DNA from: Alistipes sp.
GTDB lineage: Bacteria; Bacteroidota; Bacteroidia; Bacteroidales; Rikenellaceae
DNA: 64,000 nucleotides
Assembly: GCA_017416915.1 (NCBI GenBank)
Contig: JAFQAN010000002.1
Location: forward strand, 62,001 to 126,000
Reading direction: 5' to 3'
Below, piece after piece: positions 10,304 to 46,565 of the stretch. A model generated the notes under the pieces. It had not been told where the DNA came from. It made no database searches and saw only the letters and a program-made list of their open reading frames with translations. Numbering within the stretch: position 1 is the stretch's first letter; every line of letters starts with the position of its first letter. A program made the position numbers and the translations under genes.

Positions 10304-10735
10304 GCGCTTGGCGTGATAAGGGGTCGATTGCGTCCCCTAACAAAAAATGCCGTCAATGGGACGTACGTTCAAGTACTACCCATCGACGGCATTTTTGCCG
10401 AGTGTAGCACTCGGCACCCTTCTGACGCCAAGCTCTTGTCGTGATAGCGGCGCATCTGCGGCACCAAGCTCGTTCGTCTGAATGGGGATGTACGCCAAGT
10501 ACACCCCCATCCAGCCAAACTTCGACTTGGCACCACATCTGCGCCACTCTGACGCCAAGCTGCCTCGCGCTGCCACGCACTGCTGGGAACGCCTGAGAAA
10601 GACTGAGAATGCCTGAGAACGCCTGTGTTTTTTCGTCGTCCTGTCGTCTCGTTGTCTCGTCGTCCCGTCGTCTCGTGGTCTCGTCGTCCCGTGGTCCCGT
10701 CGTCTCGTCGCCCCGTAGTCCCGTAATATAGCAGA
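10304..10735. repeat. Composite intergenic repeat block 1 (convergent gap deoD / phospho-sugar mutase)
   Basis: No gene is supported here; ORFs in it are products of the repeats. In order: the module TTGGCGTGATAAGGGG; hairpin A1, with arms at 10348-10360 and 10379-10391 around the conserved core GTACGTTCAAGTAC; a perfect 9-bp hairpin TGCCGAGTG/CACTCGGCA at 10396-10416; hairpin B1, with arms at 10479-10487 and 10505-10513 around GTACGCCAAGTAC; 10-bp tandem repeats of the type CCTGAGAACG at 10581-10630; and 8-bp tandem repeats of the type TCTCGTCG at about 10632-10725. Blocks 2 to 5 share these parts. Confidence 0.9.
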
Positions 10736-24897: not shown

Positions 24898-26925
24898 ATG
24901 AAAAAAATCTACTCTTTGGTTGCGTTTCTTTTGGGCGCAATATTTATGGTGGCTTGTGGAGATGATCCTACGCCTACACCGACCCCAGAGCCAGAGCCAG
25001 AGCCAGGTGTTGAGTATGTAAAGCCCACAATCTCTATTCAGCAGACTGATGTTACGTCAGAGAGCTTTACTTTCGAGGTAACATCGGATGTTCCAGGCGA
25101 CTATGCATACTTCTGCGCTAATGTTTATGACAACACGCCACGCCCCAATATGCCCGAGTGGTTTAACGAGAACTCAGGCAAGGTTGATGGTAAGGCAAGC
25201 GTAACCATCGAGGACCTCGCAGCGGGTGTTAAGTATGAGCTGTTTGTCGTTGTACGTTCTACCGATGGTGGTCTGTATAGCGATGTGGCAAAGATGGAGT
25301 TTACTACAAAGAATAGTGCCAATGCTGGTCCTATCACTCTTATCTCGGCGCAGCACGACCGCTTTGCGTTCAAGGTTAATTTGAGCGGTTACTACCGTTA
25401 CTTTGCGCTCCCTAAGACCACTCTTCAATCGTTTGGTCAGACCCCTGAGACGTGGGTAGCAGTCGCTCCTGTTTCGTCGGGCGTCCAGGATTATGAGTAC
25501 ATCTCTGGCGAGAAGGGTCCCGATGGTAATATTATTATGGTTATGCCTGGTGCTACACACGTCATCGGTGTTCAGGAGTGCGACCGAAGCGGTAATGTGT
25601 ATGGCGAGTGCTACACTTTGGAGTTCGATGCGCCTGAGGCACCTGAGAGTGAGGCGTTGGTAAAGATTACGTTGAGCAATATCACATCTACGAGTGTTGA
25701 TGTTAAGTGTGAGCCAGATGCGTCGGTTGCTCACTACAATATCCTCATCCAGCCTAAGGCTACGATTGATGGTATTGTCGAGAACCCCTCTTATGGTCTT
25801 CCTACGCTAATTGCACTTATGGATACGGGTGCTGCCTGGTCAAAGTCGGGCGAGTTTAGTGGCACGTGGACAGGTCTTATCCCCGACACTGAGTACTATG
25901 TATGTGTTAAAGTTGTAGATAACCAGAACAATCAGAACTTCAACTACGATATGACCTTTACCTCTGGCACTGGCTCGGGTATTAAGGCAGAGGTGGATGT
26001 AGAGATGACTCCTTCGACAAAGTCGCCCTCTACGGCTGTCGATATCAAGATTTCGGCAAAGGATGCTGTTGAGATGCGTTGGGCGTTTAACGATAGCGCA
26101 GCTGTTGATGAGCAGCTCAAAGCTCAGAATGACAATGCCGCATCGGTAGCTAAGTTCAACGGTATTATGTTTACTGCCGATGAGTTGTCGCAGGCGCTTA
26201 ATGGCACCCTTACCTTCACTCGCGAGGATTTGTGGCCCGAGGCTGAGTATAAGGTTATCGTATATGCGGTAACTGCCGAGAAGACCGAGACGGTAGAGGT
26301 TGTAACTGTCAATACCGAGATGGCGCCTACTCCTGCGCGTGTTGAGTCGTCGTTGTTCGAGTCGTTGCAGGGCGAGTGGTATCTCTCGTACTCTTATATT
26401 GATGTTCAGGGCAATTCTCAGACTATGAGCGGCAAGGTTGTCAATATTTGCCAGGGTGTGGATGATAAGACCGAGGCAGATTATCGCGCTCAGAATCGTC
26501 TTGTTATCACAGGCTGGCAGTTCCAAAAGGAGGATATTCCTTTTATGAGTCCCGACGTGCTTATGGAGAGTCATTGGAGCTGGCGCGACCCGTATGAGAC
26601 GTTGGCATACCGCGACTACGGTCCTAAGGTCTTCCTCGAAATTGGCGCAGGCGATGTTATCACTATGCCTACCGCAAAGAATACCTGCCTCTATCACTGG
26701 GACGAGTACGGCAACCTCCTCGACTTCTATGGTGCCGACCGCCAGAAGATGCAGACAGCACCTGCACCCTTCCCCGTGGAGTTGTCTACGGATGGCAATA
26801 CTTTGACCATCAAGCCCTACGTGTCGGGAGCAGAGTTTAGCTTCGGTACTTACTATCCCGCGGTGTTCCGTGGCAGTGAGTGTTGGAGCGTTGCAACGAG
26901 CAATATAACGCTTACACGCAAGTAG
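24898..26925 (+). CDS. Surface lipoprotein with fibronectin type III-like repeats
   Basis: A 675-residue lipoprotein: signal peptide with lipobox (FMVACGDD, Cys at 20), a Pro/Thr/Glu linker (TPTPTPEPEPEPG) and several beta-sandwich repeats resembling fibronectin type III, each ending in segments such as AAGVKYELFVVVRSTDGGLYS, ATHVIGVQECDRSGNVYG and IPDTEYYVCVKVVDN. The last 170 residues form a different beta-rich module with Trp-rich strands (LQGEWYLSYSYIDVQG). Such proteins bind glycans or proteins at the cell surface. It lies directly upstream of two protease-like lipoproteins on the same strand, but a 136-nt gap with a long inverted repeat separates it from them. No enzyme motif is seen. 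Confidence 0.8.
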   Translation: MKKIYSLVAFLLGAIFMVACGDDPTPTPTPEPEPEPGVEYVKPTISIQQTDVTSESFTFEVTSDVPGDYAYFCANVYDNTPRPNMPEWFNENSGKVDGKASVTIEDLAAGVKYELFVVVRSTDGGLYSDVAKMEFTTKNSANAGPITLISAQHDRFAFKVNLSGYYRYFALPKTTLQSFGQTPETWVAVAPVSSGVQDYEYISGEKGPDGNIIMVMPGATHVIGVQECDRSGNVYGECYTLEFDAPEAPESEALVKITLSNITSTSVDVKCEPDASVAHYNILIQPKATIDGIVENPSYGLPTLIALMDTGAAWSKSGEFSGTWTGLIPDTEYYVCVKVVDNQNNQNFNYDMTFTSGTGSGIKAEVDVEMTPSTKSPSTAVDIKISAKDAVEMRWAFNDSAAVDEQLKAQNDNAASVAKFNGIMFTADELSQALNGTLTFTREDLWPEAEYKVIVYAVTAEKTETVEVVTVNTEMAPTPARVESSLFESLQGEWYLSYSYIDVQGNSQTMSGKVVNICQGVDDKTEADYRAQNRLVITGWQFQKEDIPFMSPDVLMESHWSWRDPYETLAYRDYGPKVFLEIGAGDVITMPTAKNTCLYHWDEYGNLLDFYGADRQKMQTAPAPFPVELSTDGNTLTIKPYVSGAEFSFGTYYPAVFRGSECWSVATSNITLTRK

Positions 26926-27061: not shown

Positions 27062-28774
27062 ATGAAGAGATTTTCATTTTTGATGCTTATGTTTGCTCTC
27101 TTGGGCTTCGTAGCCTGTGAGCAGGATAAGCCTCTACCCGATGCTCAGGATGGCTTGGTGCTTAGCGCCGATGTCGAGAGTATTACGGCTGACGGTATGT
27201 CGGTTGCGAATTTTACCGTGAAGCTCAACAACGAGGTCGTTACAAGCGACTGCTACATCTATAATGTCGAGAGCGGCGAGCCACTCAGCGGCAGCTTCTT
27301 TACCTCTACGACGGAGGGTCGCTACTCGTTCTACGCTACGCGAGGCTCGATGAAGTCGAATACCGTGGTTATCGATGTACTTGCTGCTGGCGAGACCCCT
27401 GCCGAGAAGGTTGCGGTGTTGAGCGTCTCTAAGTCGGAGATTATCAGCAACGGTACTGATGCCGCTATCTTCGTTGTAAGTGTCGATAATGAGGATGTTA
27501 CCAACGATGCAAAGATCTATTTGGAGAGTAGCAATCAGCCTCTCGAAGGCAACAGCTTTACCACCACCGAGGAGGGTACCTATAAGTTCTTTGCCGAGGT
27601 GGAGGGTGCTAAGCGCTCACAGAGCGTTACGGTCGTTGCTAAGGCGGAGCCTGTTGTCGAGGAGAAGCCTATCGAGCTCTCTGCATCGGTTGATACTATC
27701 CGCGCTAATGGCGTCGATGCTGTGGCGTTTACCGTTAAGCAGGAGGGAAATATCGTTACCGACGCTTGCACTATCTATGTTGATGGCGCGAAGCTCAACG
27801 GCAGCCGTTTCTCGACCTATGCAGCTGGCACATACACCTTCTATGCCGTTAAGGGCAGTGTAACATCTAACGAGGTTGTTGTTACCGCCGAGGAGGTTAC
27901 CGATACGGGTAAAACCGTACTCTTTGCCGAGGGTGTATCTATCGCGTCGGGCTGGTACGATGTAAACAAGAAGGATAAGGGCAACAATGGCGATATTAAT
28001 ATGTGTTGGGCAGCGACCGCTGCAAATATGATTCAGTGGTGGCAGGATCGCTACGTTGCTGCTGGCAATGAGCTTCCCGCTGGTGCTGTAACAGGTCCTG
28101 GCGTAACGTCATACACCAACTATGGCCCATACGAACTCGAACTTATGAGTATGTTCCACTCGGAGTGGAATAACGATCGCGGCTGTCAGGTTGTTGAGGC
28201 TATTCCTTGGTACTTCGAGGGTGTGAACTATGGAGAATCTGCGTCGGCTGGTTCTCAGGCATATCCTTTGACCGCGGGCGGTTATTGGAAGGACGTGTGG
28301 CGCGATATTTATCCGAACCTCTACCACGACTACAACTATATGTTCTATTGGTACAAAAACCTTTATACAGGCTCATTCTTGGCTTGGACAGGTTGGGATG
28401 AGGCTTGTTCTGACAGTGCCACATTGCGTGGTACAGATGCCTATGTAGCGTTCTCGCGTCGTGTTATCGAGTTCTTGGAGCGCGGTGTTTCAGAGCTGAC
28501 AATATCGACCAACCCCAATGGTGGTACCTCTCACGCAACTACGTTGTGGGGCTGTGAGTACGATAATGCGACGGGTCTGGTAACACGCATTTGGATTACC
28601 GATTCGGACGATTTGGAGTATGGTCCTAAGCAGTCGTTGCTCAATGAGTACACGGTTAGTGCTTTGGATGGTAACTACCGCGTTGCGCTTAAAGGTAATA
28701 CCCGCTATGGTGAGGCGTATGCTATGGAGTTGCAGCCTCTCTCGGGCTATGGCTCAGGCGTTGCGAACAACTAA
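27062..28774 (+). CDS. Lipoprotein with three Ig-like domains and an IdeS-like (C66) cysteine protease domain
   Basis: A 570-residue lipoprotein (lipobox GFVAC, Cys at 19). Residues 33-106, 119-192 and 205-276 are three copies of an Ig-like domain, each with a [IV]xxxG.D...F.V pattern and a TYxFYA strand. From about 287 the protein matches streptococcal IdeS/Mac: GWYDVNK, then C315 in INMCWAATAANMIQWW, H491 in SHATTLWG and D514 in WITDSDD. K303 aligns with the IdeS oxyanion Lys84; the His-Asp spacing (23) is close to IdeS (22). IdeS cuts the IgG hinge; here the predicted location is the outer surface, and the substrate is not known but an immunoglobulin or host glycoprotein is a reasonable guess. 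It heads a tight three-ORF unit (17- and 19-nt gaps). Confidence 0.82.
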   Translation: MKRFSFLMLMFALLGFVACEQDKPLPDAQDGLVLSADVESITADGMSVANFTVKLNNEVVTSDCYIYNVESGEPLSGSFFTSTTEGRYSFYATRGSMKSNTVVIDVLAAGETPAEKVAVLSVSKSEIISNGTDAAIFVVSVDNEDVTNDAKIYLESSNQPLEGNSFTTTEEGTYKFFAEVEGAKRSQSVTVVAKAEPVVEEKPIELSASVDTIRANGVDAVAFTVKQEGNIVTDACTIYVDGAKLNGSRFSTYAAGTYTFYAVKGSVTSNEVVVTAEEVTDTGKTVLFAEGVSIASGWYDVNKKDKGNNGDINMCWAATAANMIQWWQDRYVAAGNELPAGAVTGPGVTSYTNYGPYELELMSMFHSEWNNDRGCQVVEAIPWYFEGVNYGESASAGSQAYPLTAGGYWKDVWRDIYPNLYHDYNYMFYWYKNLYTGSFLAWTGWDEACSDSATLRGTDAYVAFSRRVIEFLERGVSELTISTNPNGGTSHATTLWGCEYDNATGLVTRIWITDSDDLEYGPKQSLLNEYTVSALDGNYRVALKGNTRYGEAYAMELQPLSGYGSGVANN

Positions 28775-28791
28775 TCAAGGATGCAAAAAAA

Positions 28792-28953
28792 ATGAAGAAT
28801 ATGACAAATAATTCAGCATCTAAGTTTGGTGTTGTGGGTGTCGTACCATCGTACGATGCCCCTACATTCAATATTTTGGATATCGAGGTAGAGTCGGGCT
28901 TTGATGTGAGCGGTGTTACCGCCCCCGACTTCGATAATGAGAACGAGTTATAA
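28792..28953 (+). CDS. 53-residue small ORF between the two IdeS-like genes
   Basis: ATG at 28792, 17 nt after the upstream stop; TAA at 28951-28953, 19 nt before the next ATG. The product begins MKNMTNNSASKF and contains APTFNILDIEVESGFDVSG before an acidic end (DFDNENEL). It has no signal peptide or membrane segment. Short ORFs with a (V/I)E.E.VE.GF..S core are, from memory, common beside Bacteroidales surface-protein genes and have no assigned function. The close spacing and in-frame integrity support translation. It could be a leader or assembly peptide for its neighbours; that is speculation. Confidence 0.6.
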   Translation: MKNMTNNSASKFGVVGVVPSYDAPTFNILDIEVESGFDVSGVTAPDFDNENEL

Positions 28954-28972
28954 ACAAAGGTAGTTGTAAGGT

Positions 28973-31900
28973 ATGAAAAAGCTATTTTTTGCCATTGCAT
29001 CTATGTTTGTTGCTATGGCTTGTGTTACGGATGGTGTGGAGGTCTCTACGCCTAAGTTGGACTTGGTGCCTGTTGAGCTAAGTGTCGAGGATAGTGCGAC
29101 ACGTCTCGATGTCGATGGCAATGTGGTCAAGTGGGAGGTAGGCGATAAGATTAGCGTGATGTTTACGGGCGCCTCTACCACTCAGTTTGTTACGTTTGAG
29201 ATTACCGATGCTTCGCAGATTGTCAGCGATGGCAAGTGCGCTAAGTTTAGGGGTATGGTCCCTGCGGGTAGCTACTCTCGCGCCGTTGCTCTCTATCCTG
29301 GTGTTGCTACGGGCAGCGACTCGCTTGCTGTGAATGAGCACGCCTCGCAGAATGTCTATATGGGAGGCGTTGTTGATTACGCCGACAATTTGGTTGTTGC
29401 CGAGGGCAAGAGTGTTGTTGTAACGATGTCTCTTGCACACCATATGCACAAGATTGACTATAAGCTTACGGGCGATGTCAACTACAACAATATCGCTGTT
29501 GAGATGGTGGCAAGCTCTAATGACACGACGTTGGACCTTATACAGTTTGGTGGTTACGATATGTATAGTGGCGAGTGGAGTAGTAAGGCTACTACCAAGT
29601 CGCACTTCTCGGGCATCATCGACCATAACTTTGCATCGGAGCCTGTTGCATCGTCTATGATTTTCCCCTTCGAGGCTACCAACGTAACGCTCCTCTTCAA
29701 TGTCTATATCGACGGTAAGAAGCAGTATGCTATCGAGAAGGGTCCTATTTCGAGCTTCAAGATGTCGGCGGGCAAGAGTTCGACAATCAATCTCGCCCTC
29801 ACCGAGGATAACAAGGTCAAGGAGGAGAGTTCATCGGGCAGCTCAGGTCCCACCATCAATAGCGACTTTAACCCCGACTACTATATCACTACGTTTATGT
29901 CGGGTGTTTCTGGTATCTCTGGGTCATATGGCATAGGTTTTCGTGCCTATGTTAATGGCTCATATGTCGATGTGCATATTCCAGCCACACATGCCACTAC
30001 GTCATCTATCAATGAGGGAGATTATACGTGGACGAGTTCGTCGTGGTTTGGCTACAATTCGTTTGTTGATTTTACAGTACGTAATGGTGCTGGTTTGTAT
30101 GCTTTGGGATTGAAAAATACTACAACTCTAAAAGAGGGGCAAATGGTTGTATCTAAGGTGGATGGTAAATATGTTATTGACATTACATTAACTGATACAA
30201 ACTCTACAACAAAGAAGATACAGTATATCGGTGAGCTTAACGTGGAGAATGGCGGTTATGTGCCTACTGAGTCGGGTGGCTCGGGTGGCTCGGGTAGCGG
30301 CTCAGGCTCTTCGGATATCGAGCTTAACTCACTTACGGCGCAGGGTGTAGCGTCCAATGGCTGCTACTCGTTCGCGGGCGTTGATGCTAATGGCAATACC
30401 ATCGACCTATACGTAAATACGCAGGGAGCTACGGTAAATACCATCTCTCGTGGTCTCTACGAGTTTACAAATAGCACCTATGCCAATAACGAGGCTCTAT
30501 TCTATGCCAATAACCTCACTATCAACGGCTCTGCGAAGAGTGGTGTTGTGTCGGGTATGATGCACGTTACCTCGGCAAGCAGCAACAACGTAAACCTCAG
30601 CGTAAACCTTAACTTCGACGATGGCACGTCGCAGCGATATACCTTTGGTGGCGTTATAAGTAATGTTGCCGACAACAACCTCTACCTCATTGCCTCTAAG
30701 AGTTCGATTGAGGGTAGCGGCAACGACTACACCTACTTTACCGTAACGCAGGCTGGCGCCGATGTAACATCGCAGTGTACTATCTACATCAATGGTAGCG
30801 CTACGTATGATGCAACCTTCTCATCGACCACGCCTGGTACATATACCGTATATGCTCAAAAGGGTGGTGTTAAGTCAAACGAGCTTACTATTACGGTTGA
30901 GGAGTATGTAGTTCAGTCTATCACACTCACTGCAAGCAAGATAGAGTTGGTTGCCAATAGTGTTGATAGTGTAACCTTTACCGTTAAGCAGGGTAGCACC
31001 AACATCACGACAAGTGCCGAGATATATGTAAATGGTGTTCGTAACAATGGCTCGACCTTTACAGCAGCCTCGGCGGGTACATATAGCGTATATGCTATGT
31101 ATCAGGGCGTGAAGTCTAATACCGTAACGCTTACGGCGACTGCTCCCGACCCCTCTAACTATGAGATAGTATTTGCCGAGGGCGTAACTCTCACCACTGG
31201 TTGGTACGATGTAAACAAGAAGGCAACAGGTCTCAATGGCGATATCAATATGTGTTGGGCAGCTGCCTCTTCAAATATCATTCAGTGGTGGCAGGATAGA
31301 TATGTTGCTGCTGGCAATACACTCCCTTCGGGTGCGATAAGCGGTCCTGGTACAACCTCATATACGAACTATGGTCCATACGAGCTTGAACTTATGAATA
31401 TGTTCCTAACACAGTGGAATAATGAAAAGGGTGGTCATATGGAGCAGGCTATTCCTTGGTACTTTGAGGGCGTATTGAATGGTGGCGAGCTTGCATCATC
31501 AGGCTCGCAAGCATATCCTTTGACAGCGGGTGGCTATTTTTCAAGTGTGTGGAGTAGTATAACTCCATATATGTATAGAGGATATGATAGTAATGTCGGA
31601 TATGCCACATGCTATAATAACTACTATATTTGGGGTAATGGCTCATCATATACTGGCACAGATAGGTTAAAGAAGTTCTCGGACCTTGTAGTAGAGGCGT
31701 TTGAACATGGTATGGCGGGTCTTACTATAAGTCTTTCTGCAACCCTCAGCTCCACGCACCACGCAACAACCTTGTGGGGCTATGAGATTGACAAAACTAC
31801 GGGTCTTCTTACGCGAGTATGGATTACCGACTCTGACGACTTGGAGGACGAGCCTAAGTCGCAGATACTCAACGAGTACACCGTGTCGATTGGTACAGGT

Positions 31901-31996
31901 AATTCGCAGATTAAACTGTCGGGAGGCTCGCGATATGGTGCTTGTTATGTAGTGTCGCTACATCCTATTTCGGGCTATGGCTCGGCAGACAACTAA
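28973..31996 (+). CDS. Large lipoprotein with fimbrillin-like N-terminus, Ig-like repeats and an IdeS-like (C66) protease domain
   Basis: A 1007-residue lipoprotein (lipobox VAMACV, Cys at 17). Residues about 25-280 resemble fimbrillin-like surface proteins (TRLDVDGNVVKWEVGDKISV). Two further beta modules follow (about 300-430 and 447-560), separated by Ser/Gly linkers, then two Ig-like repeats (about 570-643 and 649-720) of the kind in the upstream gene. The C-terminal domain from about 735 matches IdeS: GWYDVNK with K749, C761 in INMCWAAASSNIIQWW, H930 in THHATTLWG and D953 in WITDSDD. Its protease domain is clearly paralogous to the upstream one, down to the shared ending SGYGS. Stretches within it are more AT-rich than the rest, suggesting recombination. 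Confidence 0.82.
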   Translation: MKKLFFAIASMFVAMACVTDGVEVSTPKLDLVPVELSVEDSATRLDVDGNVVKWEVGDKISVMFTGASTTQFVTFEITDASQIVSDGKCAKFRGMVPAGSYSRAVALYPGVATGSDSLAVNEHASQNVYMGGVVDYADNLVVAEGKSVVVTMSLAHHMHKIDYKLTGDVNYNNIAVEMVASSNDTTLDLIQFGGYDMYSGEWSSKATTKSHFSGIIDHNFASEPVASSMIFPFEATNVTLLFNVYIDGKKQYAIEKGPISSFKMSAGKSSTINLALTEDNKVKEESSSGSSGPTINSDFNPDYYITTFMSGVSGISGSYGIGFRAYVNGSYVDVHIPATHATTSSINEGDYTWTSSSWFGYNSFVDFTVRNGAGLYALGLKNTTTLKEGQMVVSKVDGKYVIDITLTDTNSTTKKIQYIGELNVENGGYVPTESGGSGGSGSGSGSSDIELNSLTAQGVASNGCYSFAGVDANGNTIDLYVNTQGATVNTISRGLYEFTNSTYANNEALFYANNLTINGSAKSGVVSGMMHVTSASSNNVNLSVNLNFDDGTSQRYTFGGVISNVADNNLYLIASKSSIEGSGNDYTYFTVTQAGADVTSQCTIYINGSATYDATFSSTTPGTYTVYAQKGGVKSNELTITVEEYVVQSITLTASKIELVANSVDSVTFTVKQGSTNITTSAEIYVNGVRNNGSTFTAASAGTYSVYAMYQGVKSNTVTLTATAPDPSNYEIVFAEGVTLTTGWYDVNKKATGLNGDINMCWAAASSNIIQWWQDRYVAAGNTLPSGAISGPGTTSYTNYGPYELELMNMFLTQWNNEKGGHMEQAIPWYFEGVLNGGELASSGSQAYPLTAGGYFSSVWSSITPYMYRGYDSNVGYATCYNNYYIWGNGSSYTGTDRLKKFSDLVVEAFEHGMAGLTISLSATLSSTHHATTLWGYEIDKTTGLLTRVWITDSDDLEDEPKSQILNEYTVSIGTGNSQIKLSGGSRYGACYVVSLHPISGYGSADN

Positions 31997-32129: not shown

Positions 32130-32370
32130 ACGCGCAGCTGAGAACGTCTGAGAATGCCTGAGAACGACTGTGTTTTTAGGGGTCTCGTAGTCTCGCAGTC
32201 TCGCGGTCCTGTGGTCCTGTGGTCCCGCAGTCCCGCAGTCTCGCAGTCCCGTAGTCCCGTTGGCGCGCCTCCCAGTCTTTCCCAGTTATTCCCAGCCGTT
32301 CTCAGTCTTTCTCAGCCAATTGCGCGCCTCTCAGCCGTTCTCAGCCAATCGCGCCTCTCAGCAACAATAA
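32130..32370. repeat. Composite intergenic repeat block 2 (convergent gap)
   Basis: Forward 10-bp tandem repeats (CTGAGAACGT-like) at about 32136-32170, 8-bp tandem repeats (TCTCGCAG/TCCCGCAG-like) at about 32182-32260, and inverted 10-bp repeats (CTCAGTCTTT-like) at about 32270-32360. The two 10-mer blocks are inverted and could fold into a long stem. No gene is supported. Confidence 0.85.
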
Positions 32371-32426: not shown

Positions 32427-33341
32427 TTACTCGATAATCTGACCAGTAGAGTCATTGTAGAGCGAATAGTCGCCCTCGAAGGTTACGTAGTGGCGACCGA
32501 TACGAACGCCATTCTCAAAGTCGTAGAGCGTTACGAGCAACTCAAATTTGTTGCCCTCGACAATAAGCTTGCCATCCGAGAAATTCCAGCTCTCTGCAAC
32601 ACCACCATACTCATTCATGCGCTCATATACGCTGAAACCTCCCTCGATAACGGGACCCATACCTGTTGCTTGCCACTTAACCTCGTACTCGCCGTCGGGA
32701 ACAGTGAGTGTGCCATCGTCGGGCTTGTTAGAGTACAAATCAACGGTGTAGTAGTAGGCATTGGGGGTATTATGGGTAAACTTGCGGAACCAACCGTAGC
32801 CCTGCTCCTGCGCCCAATCACCACCGCTAAGCTCTCCATCTGTGAAGAAGAGGTAGTAGTTGTAGTCGGCGCCGTCGCGGTTGCCATAGTAGATACCGTG
32901 CAGCTTAGGTGCTACGACAGTCTCGTCAATCTCGCTGTTAGCCTTCTGATTAACCATCACCGTAAACGACTCCTCGCCGCACGATGCCGTGATGTTGCAC
33001 GAGCGCGAGAAATTGGTTTGGTTGCGCTTCACCGAGAACGTAATCTCGTTAGGAGTCTGGCTGTTGATGTGGATAACCCATTGGTCATTCTCCTCCAAAT
33101 CGGTTGTTACGACAATGTCGCTTGCCGAAGCACCCGTAATAGAGTAGCTAATAGTACCATTACCACCATTAGCGCTAAATACCATAGCGCCCTCCGACAG
33201 TAGGGTTAGCTCAACCTCGTCGCCAGGTGTAGGGGTAGGCGTAGGTGTAGGGGTCGGGGTAGGCCCGTTGTTGTCAGGCGTGTTATCCTCGCAGCTTGCC
33301 AACATAAGACCCATTGCGAGTAAAAGAAAAAGTTTTCTCAT
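32427..33341 (-). CDS. Lipoprotein with BACON-like domain
   Basis: A 304-residue lipoprotein: lipobox MLASCEDN and a repetitive Thr-Pro linker (PTPTPTPTPTPTPG), followed by a domain of about 90 residues resembling BACON beta-sandwiches (FSANGGNGTISYSI, then FSRSCNITASCGEESFTVMV). The remaining 160 residues form a beta-rich module containing YYLFFTDGELSGG and YYYTVDLYSNKPDDG. BACON domains are thought to bind carbohydrate or mucin glycoproteins. It is convergent with the protease genes and its own transcript appears monocistronic. Function beyond a surface-binding role is not evident. Confidence 0.78.
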   Translation of the reverse strand: MRKLFLLLAMGLMLASCEDNTPDNNGPTPTPTPTPTPTPGDEVELTLLSEGAMVFSANGGNGTISYSITGASASDIVVTTDLEENDQWVIHINSQTPNEITFSVKRNQTNFSRSCNITASCGEESFTVMVNQKANSEIDETVVAPKLHGIYYGNRDGADYNYYLFFTDGELSGGDWAQEQGYGWFRKFTHNTPNAYYYTVDLYSNKPDDGTLTVPDGEYEVKWQATGMGPVIEGGFSVYERMNEYGGVAESWNFSDGKLIVEGNKFELLVTLYDFENGVRIGRHYVTFEGDYSLYNDSTGQIIE

Positions 33342-39128: not shown

Positions 39129-39600
39129 GCTTGGTGTGATAAGGGGTCGATTGCGTCCCCTAACAAAAAATGCCGTCAATGGGACGTACGCGCAAGTACT
39201 ACCCATCGACGGCATTTTTGCCGAGTGTAGCACTCGGCACCCTTCTGAAACCAAGCCCTTGTCGTGATAGCGGCGCATCTGCGGCACCAAGCTCGTTCGT
39301 CTGAATGGGGATGTACGCCCAAGTACACCCCCATCCAGCCAAACTTCGACTTGGCACCACATCTGCACCACTCTGACGCCAAGCTGCCTCGCGCAGCCGC
39401 GCACAGCCTCGCACTGCTGAGAACGACTGAGAATGACTGAGAACGACTGAGAACGCCTGTGTTTTTCAAGGGTCTCATAGTCTCGTCGTCTCGTCGTCTC
39501 GCAGTCTCGTGGTCTCGCAGTCTCGCGGGCGCGATTCCCAGTCGTTCCCAGTCGTTCTCAGTCGTTCTCAGTCGTTCTCAGCCACTCGCGCGCCCCTCAG
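39129..39600. repeat. Composite intergenic repeat block 3 (convergent gap der / 5'-nucleotidase)
   Basis: The most complete copy. In order: module TTGGTGTGATAAGGGG; hairpin A2 (arms 39171-39183 and 39202-39214, core GTACGCGCAAGTAC); 9-bp hairpin at 39219-39239; hairpin B2 (arms 39302-39310 and 39329-39337, core GTACGCCCAAGTAC); forward 10-mers (GAACGACTGA-like) at about 39416-39459; 8-mers (TCTCGTCG-like) at about 39472-39530; and inverted 10-mers (CAGTCGTTCT-like) at about 39536-39583. No gene is supported. Confidence 0.9.
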
Positions 39601-46204: not shown

Positions 46205-46565
46205 TAAGGGGCAATCTGCGGCACATCCCAAAAAGTAAAGCACCACGGGCTGTACGTTTTAGTACTATCCCGTGGTGCTTTCTTTTGCGATGCACCACAT
46301 CTTACCCCTTCTCCCACCAAGCTGCCTCGCACAGCCTCGCACGACTGGGAATGACTGAGAACGCCTGAGAACGCCTGTGTTTTTCAGGGATTACGAGACT
46401 TCGAGACTTCGGGACTACGGGATATTGCGGGCGATGCCCGTGTTTTTTGCAGTCTCGTGTTCTCGTGTTCTCGTGTTCTCGTGTTCTCGTCGTCTCGCGG
46501 TCTTGTGGCGCGCTACCCAGTCGTTCACAGTCTTTCTCAGTCATTCTCAGGTATTCTCAGCTAAT
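46195..46565. repeat. Composite intergenic repeat block 4 (convergent gap after pnuT)
   Basis: Module TTGGTGTGATAAGGGG overlapping the pnuT stop; hairpin C with a perfect stem (arms 46237-46249 and 46269-46281, core GTACGTTTTAGTAC); forward 10-mers (ACTGAGAACG-like) at about 46343-46380; 8-mers (TCTCGTGT-like, four exact or near copies) at about 46450-46508; inverted 10-mers at about 46515-46562. No intact gene is supported. Confidence 0.88.

Follow-up and report, generated by a model that had tools for sequence, protein, structure and literature searches.

Two neighbouring genes of Alistipes sp. raise the question of whether a gut bacterium carries active, surface-displayed relatives of the immunoglobulin protease IdeS and, if it does, which protein these enzymes cut. 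The genes lie within the window, a 64,000-nt stretch of DNA, and both are encoded on the forward strand: P1 at positions 27062-28774 (570 aa) and P2 at 28973-31996 (1007 aa). The two open frames are intact, and the encoded proteins have a common architecture, in which a signal peptide with a lipid-anchor cysteine (read by eye) is followed by Ig-like repeats and the protease domain forms the C-terminus.

The C66 protease pair

The signal peptide of P1, with Cys19, is followed by three Ig-like repeats at approximately aa 34-281 (signal peptide and repeat borders assigned by eye) and by a Mac-1/C66 protease domain at aa 283-570 (27908-28771, + strand). The longer P2 consists of a signal peptide with Cys17 (by eye), a fimbrillin-like N-terminal region, further stretches to which no named domain was assigned, two Ig-like repeats at approximately aa 573-727 (by eye), and a Mac-1/C66 domain at aa 729-1007 (31157-31993, + strand; PF09028, E 4.6e-14). 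The earlier note had described both enzymes as displayed on the surface on Ig-like stalks; signal peptides were read by eye in both proteins, and by sequence and model such lipid-anchored display outside the cell is likely.

Assignment of both proteins to the Mac-1/C66 family, also proposed before, was corroborated by profile searching. P1 and P2 matched the Pfam Mac-1 model (PF09028) with 55.8 and 52.6 bits, well above the curated cut-off of 20.3, and were the sole matching genes in the source genome. NCBIfam offered no useful model. We then considered a 78-row alignment (77 frames kept, L038 removed, and two window rows added), from which frames truncated by the end of a contig and frames whose domain measured <200 aa had been removed beforehand. 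PF09028 matched 78 of 78 rows at E ≤0.001, the relatives coming from the best 80 of 128. In contrast, the AvrRpt2-type papain-like family PF12385 was detected weakly in 7 of the 78 rows (best E 9.6e-5), and staphopain, another papain-like relative, fell far below in Z in the structure comparison. As judged from sequence and model, membership of P1 and P2 in C66 (Mac-1/IdeS) is firm.

The complete IdeS catalytic set reported in the earlier note was found in both proteins, and its residue numbers and His-Asp spacing of 23 proved exact. In P1 (all + strand), the oxyanion Lys303 (27968-27970) corresponds to IdeS K84, the nucleophile Cys315 (28004-28006) to C94, His491 (28532-28534) to H262, and Asp514 (28601-28603) to D284; the P2 counterparts, likewise on the + strand, are K749 (31217-31219), C761 (31253-31255), H930 (31760-31762), and D953 (31829-31831). 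The catalytic His and Asp are invariant in all 78 rows, which were not chosen for these residues (best 80 of 128 relatives). Lys and Cys are likewise present in 78 of 78, partly by construction because the search patterns and the motif scan required both. Four loci dropped by the motif scan, and hence missing from it and from the counts after it (L073, L089, L096, and L097 of 76), keep all four catalytic residues by eye. The intact frames, the PF09028 scores, and the catalytic residues rule out chance or a frame artefact.

The predicted structure of P1 is confident and contains the IdeS-type papain fold, with an Ig-like domain directly before the Mac-1 domain; the model was aligned with 9mdm and 9arc. 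Its top Foldseek match was T-Mac (E 1.7e-12), and the Ig domain falls inside that alignment, which has 15% identity and an rmsd of 10.0 over 313 residues. The family profile scores IdeS at 6e-21 and T-Mac at 1e-11.

Gene group and occurrence of the family

The first gene of the group encodes an fn3 lipoprotein of 675 aa (24898-26925, + strand) with a signal peptide and lipid-anchor Cys read by eye, four fibronectin-III-like domains (counted on the model by eye), and, at approximately aa 480-675, a conserved C-terminal domain. A fold search with this last domain covered little of it and yielded no name. Relatives were collected from 167 stretches that matched the search patterns, 128 of which encode relatives; the best 80 were kept and represent 76 loci. 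In 33 of these 76 loci (best 80 of 128 relatives), the gene immediately before the first protease gene, on the same strand, encodes an fn3 lipoprotein, with -1 to 142 nt between the open frames; one genome contributes two identical copies to the 33 (L034 and L038). Among 180 genomes of the genus, taken as they come and uncorrected for kinship, strong matches to the protease were found in 41 and to the fn3 protein in 38, with both in 36, the protease alone in 5, the fn3 protein alone in 2, and neither in 137. The cut-offs for these counts (E up to ~1e-60 for the protease and up to 1e-120 for fn3) were fixed after the lists were seen, and weaker matches were scored as absent, to the protease profile in 20 genomes (some to the Ig part only, some Asn-type) and to fn3 in 23. 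Four kinds of flanking gene, named by eye from their look, recur among the 76 loci (best 80 of 128), namely relA/spoT at 9, uvrB at 14, a lipid kinase at 12, and a peptidase at 10, so the setting is chromosomal. P1 and P2 are a real, intact C66 protease pair inside a conserved surface-lipoprotein gene group, the three genes of which may be co-transcribed.

A small ORF of 53 codons plus stop, ending in APDFDNENEL, lies between P1 and P2 (28792-28953, + strand). Of 13 tandem loci (best 80 of 128 relatives), 12 have such an ORF ahead of the second protease, ten of them detected by an ATG scan that included the window and two, L066 and L031, recognised by eye without an ATG; the sole exception is the Opitutales pair L090, which has no small ORF. 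The recurrent end consists of P, D or G, F, and then E-N near the stop. A model of the small ORF found 13 further places in the source genome at E <0.3, and a fimbrillin-like lipoprotein follows at 12 of them (by eye), the remaining one, L112, lying inside a long frame. Small ORFs of ~30-55 codons ahead of fimbrillin-like lipoprotein genes (28792-28953; L100-L111) are a general layout in this genome. The Mfa_like_1 model PF13149 matched two of the eight members of the P2 N-terminal alignment (best E 2.3e-8), with the window copy failing at E 0.1. By sequence, P2 resembles a surface protein of the fimbrillin-like kind that ends in a protease.

Downstream of P2, a lipoprotein gene on the opposite strand (32427-33341, -) encodes a BACON-like domain (PF13004, E 3.5e-5, 24.1 bits against a cut-off of 25); it was placed outside the gene group because relatives occur at only 4 of the 76 loci (best 80 of 128). 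Just after P2 sits one copy of a dispersed repeat that occurs in the window at 10583-10724, 32138-32357, 39416-39582, and 46453-46560. It is built of a 10-nt-period (CTGAGAACGA)n array, an 8-nt-period (GTCTCGTA)n array, and the 10-nt array inverted, some copies being incomplete; the arms of the copy at 39416 measure 44 nt and are 93% complementary. Its three-unit pattern, with ≤1 mismatch and overlapping matches counted singly, occurs 124 + 147 times in the source genome versus 0 + 0 in the reversed control.

At least 58 of the 76 loci carry RGIG titles, all from ruminants (buffalo, yak, sheep, goat, cattle, and deer) and all from the cecum (18), colon (25), or rectum (15), among the best 80 of 128 relatives. 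In the available portion of its description, the RGIG catalogue sampled ten gut regions, and Alistipes was commoner in the large intestine (PMC8199421), so the hindgut origin is not independent of lineage. The titles of the remaining 18 loci name no ruminant gut site; these are SIG MAGs (12 loci of this series) and further records, including Verrucomicrobiota, Clostridia, Akkermansia, one Porphyromonas, and Flavobacterium supellecticarium (L091), again within the best 80 of 128. PF09028 is patchy in the order of the window (10 of 393 genomes, source genome included); it occurs in 10 of 61 related genomes searched, the source included, all within the 37 of the same genus. The plasmid collection gave no match to the P1 domain, and none of 20 viral stretches that matched a pattern was confirmed as a relative; a mobile-element origin was rejected on these grounds and on the recurring chromosomal flanks. 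The earlier note regarded IdeS enzymes as mainly streptococcal, which is right for those members that cut IgG in the literature as far as the texts extend, but PF09028 also occurs in Bacteroidales, Verrucomicrobiota, and others, a Treponema member has been characterised, and Mac-1 homologues in Cytophaga-Fusobacterium-Bacteroides bacteria, and thus in Bacteroidetes, are already known from print (PMC11833123, available part).

Several records depart from the P1 and P2 architecture. The Mac-1 proteins encoded at L085, L087, L088, L089, L090, L094, L095, and L098 (Opitutales/Verrucomicrobia and Akkermansia records) are short and show no evident Ig stalk, and L090 has two Mac-1 proteins that overlap as open frames. 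Dockerin and PEP-CTERM models each matched 2 of 78 rows in a profile search of the alignment. In the Clostridia/Eubacteriales members L096 and L097, GWYD is preceded by IWTKGI (by eye), a lead-in that resembles that of IdeS and differs from that of the Bacteroidales members.

Proposed protease exchange between two scaffolds

The protease domain appears on two scaffolds, a plain Ig stalk as in P1 and a fimbrillin-like front plus stalk as in P2. Pairs from 11 of the 13 tandem loci were compared (all but L031 and L090). Identity within a pair is 50.2-99.7% for the protease domains but stays at 40-63% for the last Ig domain in every pair. Six pairs have protease domains at least 80% identical: L025 (99.7), L042 (92.7), L062 (92.6), L040 (88.7), L066 (82.9), and L061 (80.1). 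A single origin of the P2-type protease domains was rejected, since the tree requires eight changes for the eight such rows, which form one group in 0% of bootstrap trees. Because the protease parts of many pairs are alike while the adjoining Ig domains diverge, and because the P2-type domains are scattered on the tree, repeated exchange of a protease cassette between the two scaffolds is the simplest reading of the sequences, with gene conversion as a candidate cause of the likeness. The window pair itself, with 59% identity in the protease and 45% in the last Ig domain, gave no sign of recent exchange. P1 of the window is an outlier, departing at nine columns that ≥85% of relatives conserve, with its NNY stretch at aa 440-442 among the departures, versus four in P2; its end branch on the tree is 0.44 versus 0.15 for P2.

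Substrate and comparison with known systems

The best overall explanation, to which we give a probability of roughly 0.4, is that P1 and P2 are an active surface C66 pair that cuts a host defence protein and works with an fn3 partner from two scaffolds. The family, the fold of P1, the catalytic set, the gene group, and the likeness of the proteases across scaffolds were computed directly. Under this explanation, two papain-fold cysteine proteases would be held outside the cell by the lipid anchor and Ig-like stalk; Cys315 and Cys761, with His, Asp, and the oxyanion Lys, would make one or a few cuts in a secreted host defence protein close to the cell surface; and the fn3 lipoprotein may act as a surface partner that perhaps holds the substrate or the enzyme. 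The target is probably among host secreted proteins. Immunoglobulin of the host mucosa would be the best single guess at the substrate, though a tentative one, with complement-type proteins next by name and on the whole unlikely; proteins of other kinds would be a doubtful choice.

A host-defence target is favoured by C66 members that, in the portions of the literature at hand, act on immunoglobulin (IdeS, IdeC, and IdeSsuis) or complement (T-Mac). The prosegment-binding loop is comparatively variable (mean entropy 1.73 versus 1.29, with 38 of 276 eleven-residue windows of the alignment as variable or more; 69 rows), as expected if the loop meets a changing partner. The RGIG loci all come from cecum, colon, or rectum, sites with host secretions, which counts for a host target; the same origin may merely mirror where the lineage lives, which counts against it. 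Ruminant hindgut origin is therefore compatible with a mucosal immunoglobulin substrate and equally with other proteins. A more specific picture, in which a dedicated gut-commensal system against host antibody or complement presents one exchangeable C66 cassette, its copies kept similar by gene conversion, on two surface scaffolds (the Ig stalk and a fimbrillin-like, pilus-type front) while the fn3 protein catches substrate in the ruminant hindgut, is improbable as a whole.

The antibody reading, which the earlier note put forward for the gut with IgA as a possible target, is weakened by T-Mac, a protein of similar build that cuts C3, C3b, C4, and factor H but neither human IgG nor IgA (PMC11833123, available part), and by the absence in P1 and P2 of an equivalent of IdeS Tyr255; both make antibody cutting just the best known activity of a family whose assignment here is firm. 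P1 and P2 might instead work as T-Mac does and act on defence proteins other than antibody, those of the complement type among them, while the Ig-like stalk would itself bind molecules of the host. The common order of lipoprotein, Ig-like domains, and Mac-1 domain, the Foldseek ranking, and the absence of a Tyr255 equivalent from T-Mac as well agree with this proposal. However, the triad Asp is that of IdeS rather than the Asn of T-Mac, the family profile favours IdeS, and the relative placing of the Ig and protease domains seems different, given the high rmsd. Complement is also expected to be scarce in the gut lumen, and we consider this alternative unlikely.

A slightly better case, if still a doubtful one, can be made for surface proteases that serve nutrient acquisition or act generally on dietary, mucin, or microbial proteins, with no tie of the fold to immunity. 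Relatives without a known host tie, in F. supellecticarium and Verrucomicrobiota, mean that host immunoglobulin cannot be assumed for the whole family, and the layout of small ORF and fimbrillin-like lipoprotein is widespread in the source genome. General digestion fits poorly with a genome in which P1 and P2 alone match PF09028, with strong matches in just 41 of 180 genus genomes, and with the narrow, exosite-dependent action of IdeS, the best studied member (PMC9759587, available part). Decay into inactive homologues retained as binding proteins would accord with the nine departures and long branch of P1; intact catalytic residues in P1, P2, and relatives, intact frames, and a confident fold make it most improbable.

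Among the matches listed in the literature search, titles and opening lines of abstracts pointed to no work on IdeS-like enzymes of gut Bacteroidales, and the gene group, the two scaffolds, and cassette exchange were not found in them; in the accessible text of PMC9996055 and PMC10318531, IdeS or C66 is named only in passing. C66 enzymes are medically useful because of their narrow antibody cutting, and IdeS is clinically approved (PMC9759587, available part). The 76 diverse gut loci (best 80 of 128), with their regular partner gene and two display scaffolds, open a direct route to the question of whether mucosal antibody or complement is trimmed by commensals, and of what steers a C66 enzyme to immunoglobulin or to complement. 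If the substrate is something else, the label "immunoglobulin-degrading" would fail for much of the family.

IdeS is a free secreted enzyme without a stalk. Compared with IdeS/Mac-1 of Streptococcus pyogenes (PF09028, MEROPS C66) and IdeC of S. canis, P1 and P2 differ by their lipid anchor, Ig-like stalks, and fn3 partner; relative to IdeS, they also have a shorter lead-in before GWYD. Tyr255 of the IdeS prosegment-binding loop, located as the position seven before His counted without gaps, is replaced by Asn in P1 and Ala in P2 (by eye), and Tyr occupies this position in 1 of 78 rows (relatives from the best 80 of 128). IdeS grips IgG through an extended exosite while this loop gates the cleft (PMC9759587, available part), and structural differences that include the loop have been suggested as the source of T-Mac specificity (PMC11833123, likewise).

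T-Mac (TDE0362) of Treponema denticola proceeds, like P1, from lipoprotein through Ig-like domains to Mac-1, and none of the three proteins has a Tyr255 equivalent. No fn3 partner or second scaffold was found in the available part of its description (PMC11833123), according to which its Mac domain, made on its own, was insoluble. Its triad uses Asn, whereas P1 and P2 have Asp514 and Asp953 as in IdeS, and all 78 rows of the alignment likewise have Asp. Closer to T-Mac at that residue are L005, L006, and L014, which come from the same genus as the window and form a second Mac-1 subfamily, of Asn type; its members share the Mac-1 domain and have a fimbrillin-like front region (by eye), with DNN instead of the TDSDD motif and 20-24% identity to P1. 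The fimbrillin-like (Mfa_like_1) lipoproteins of the source genome are not Mac-1 proteins, but they share with P2 the upstream small ORF and, by likeness, the front region.
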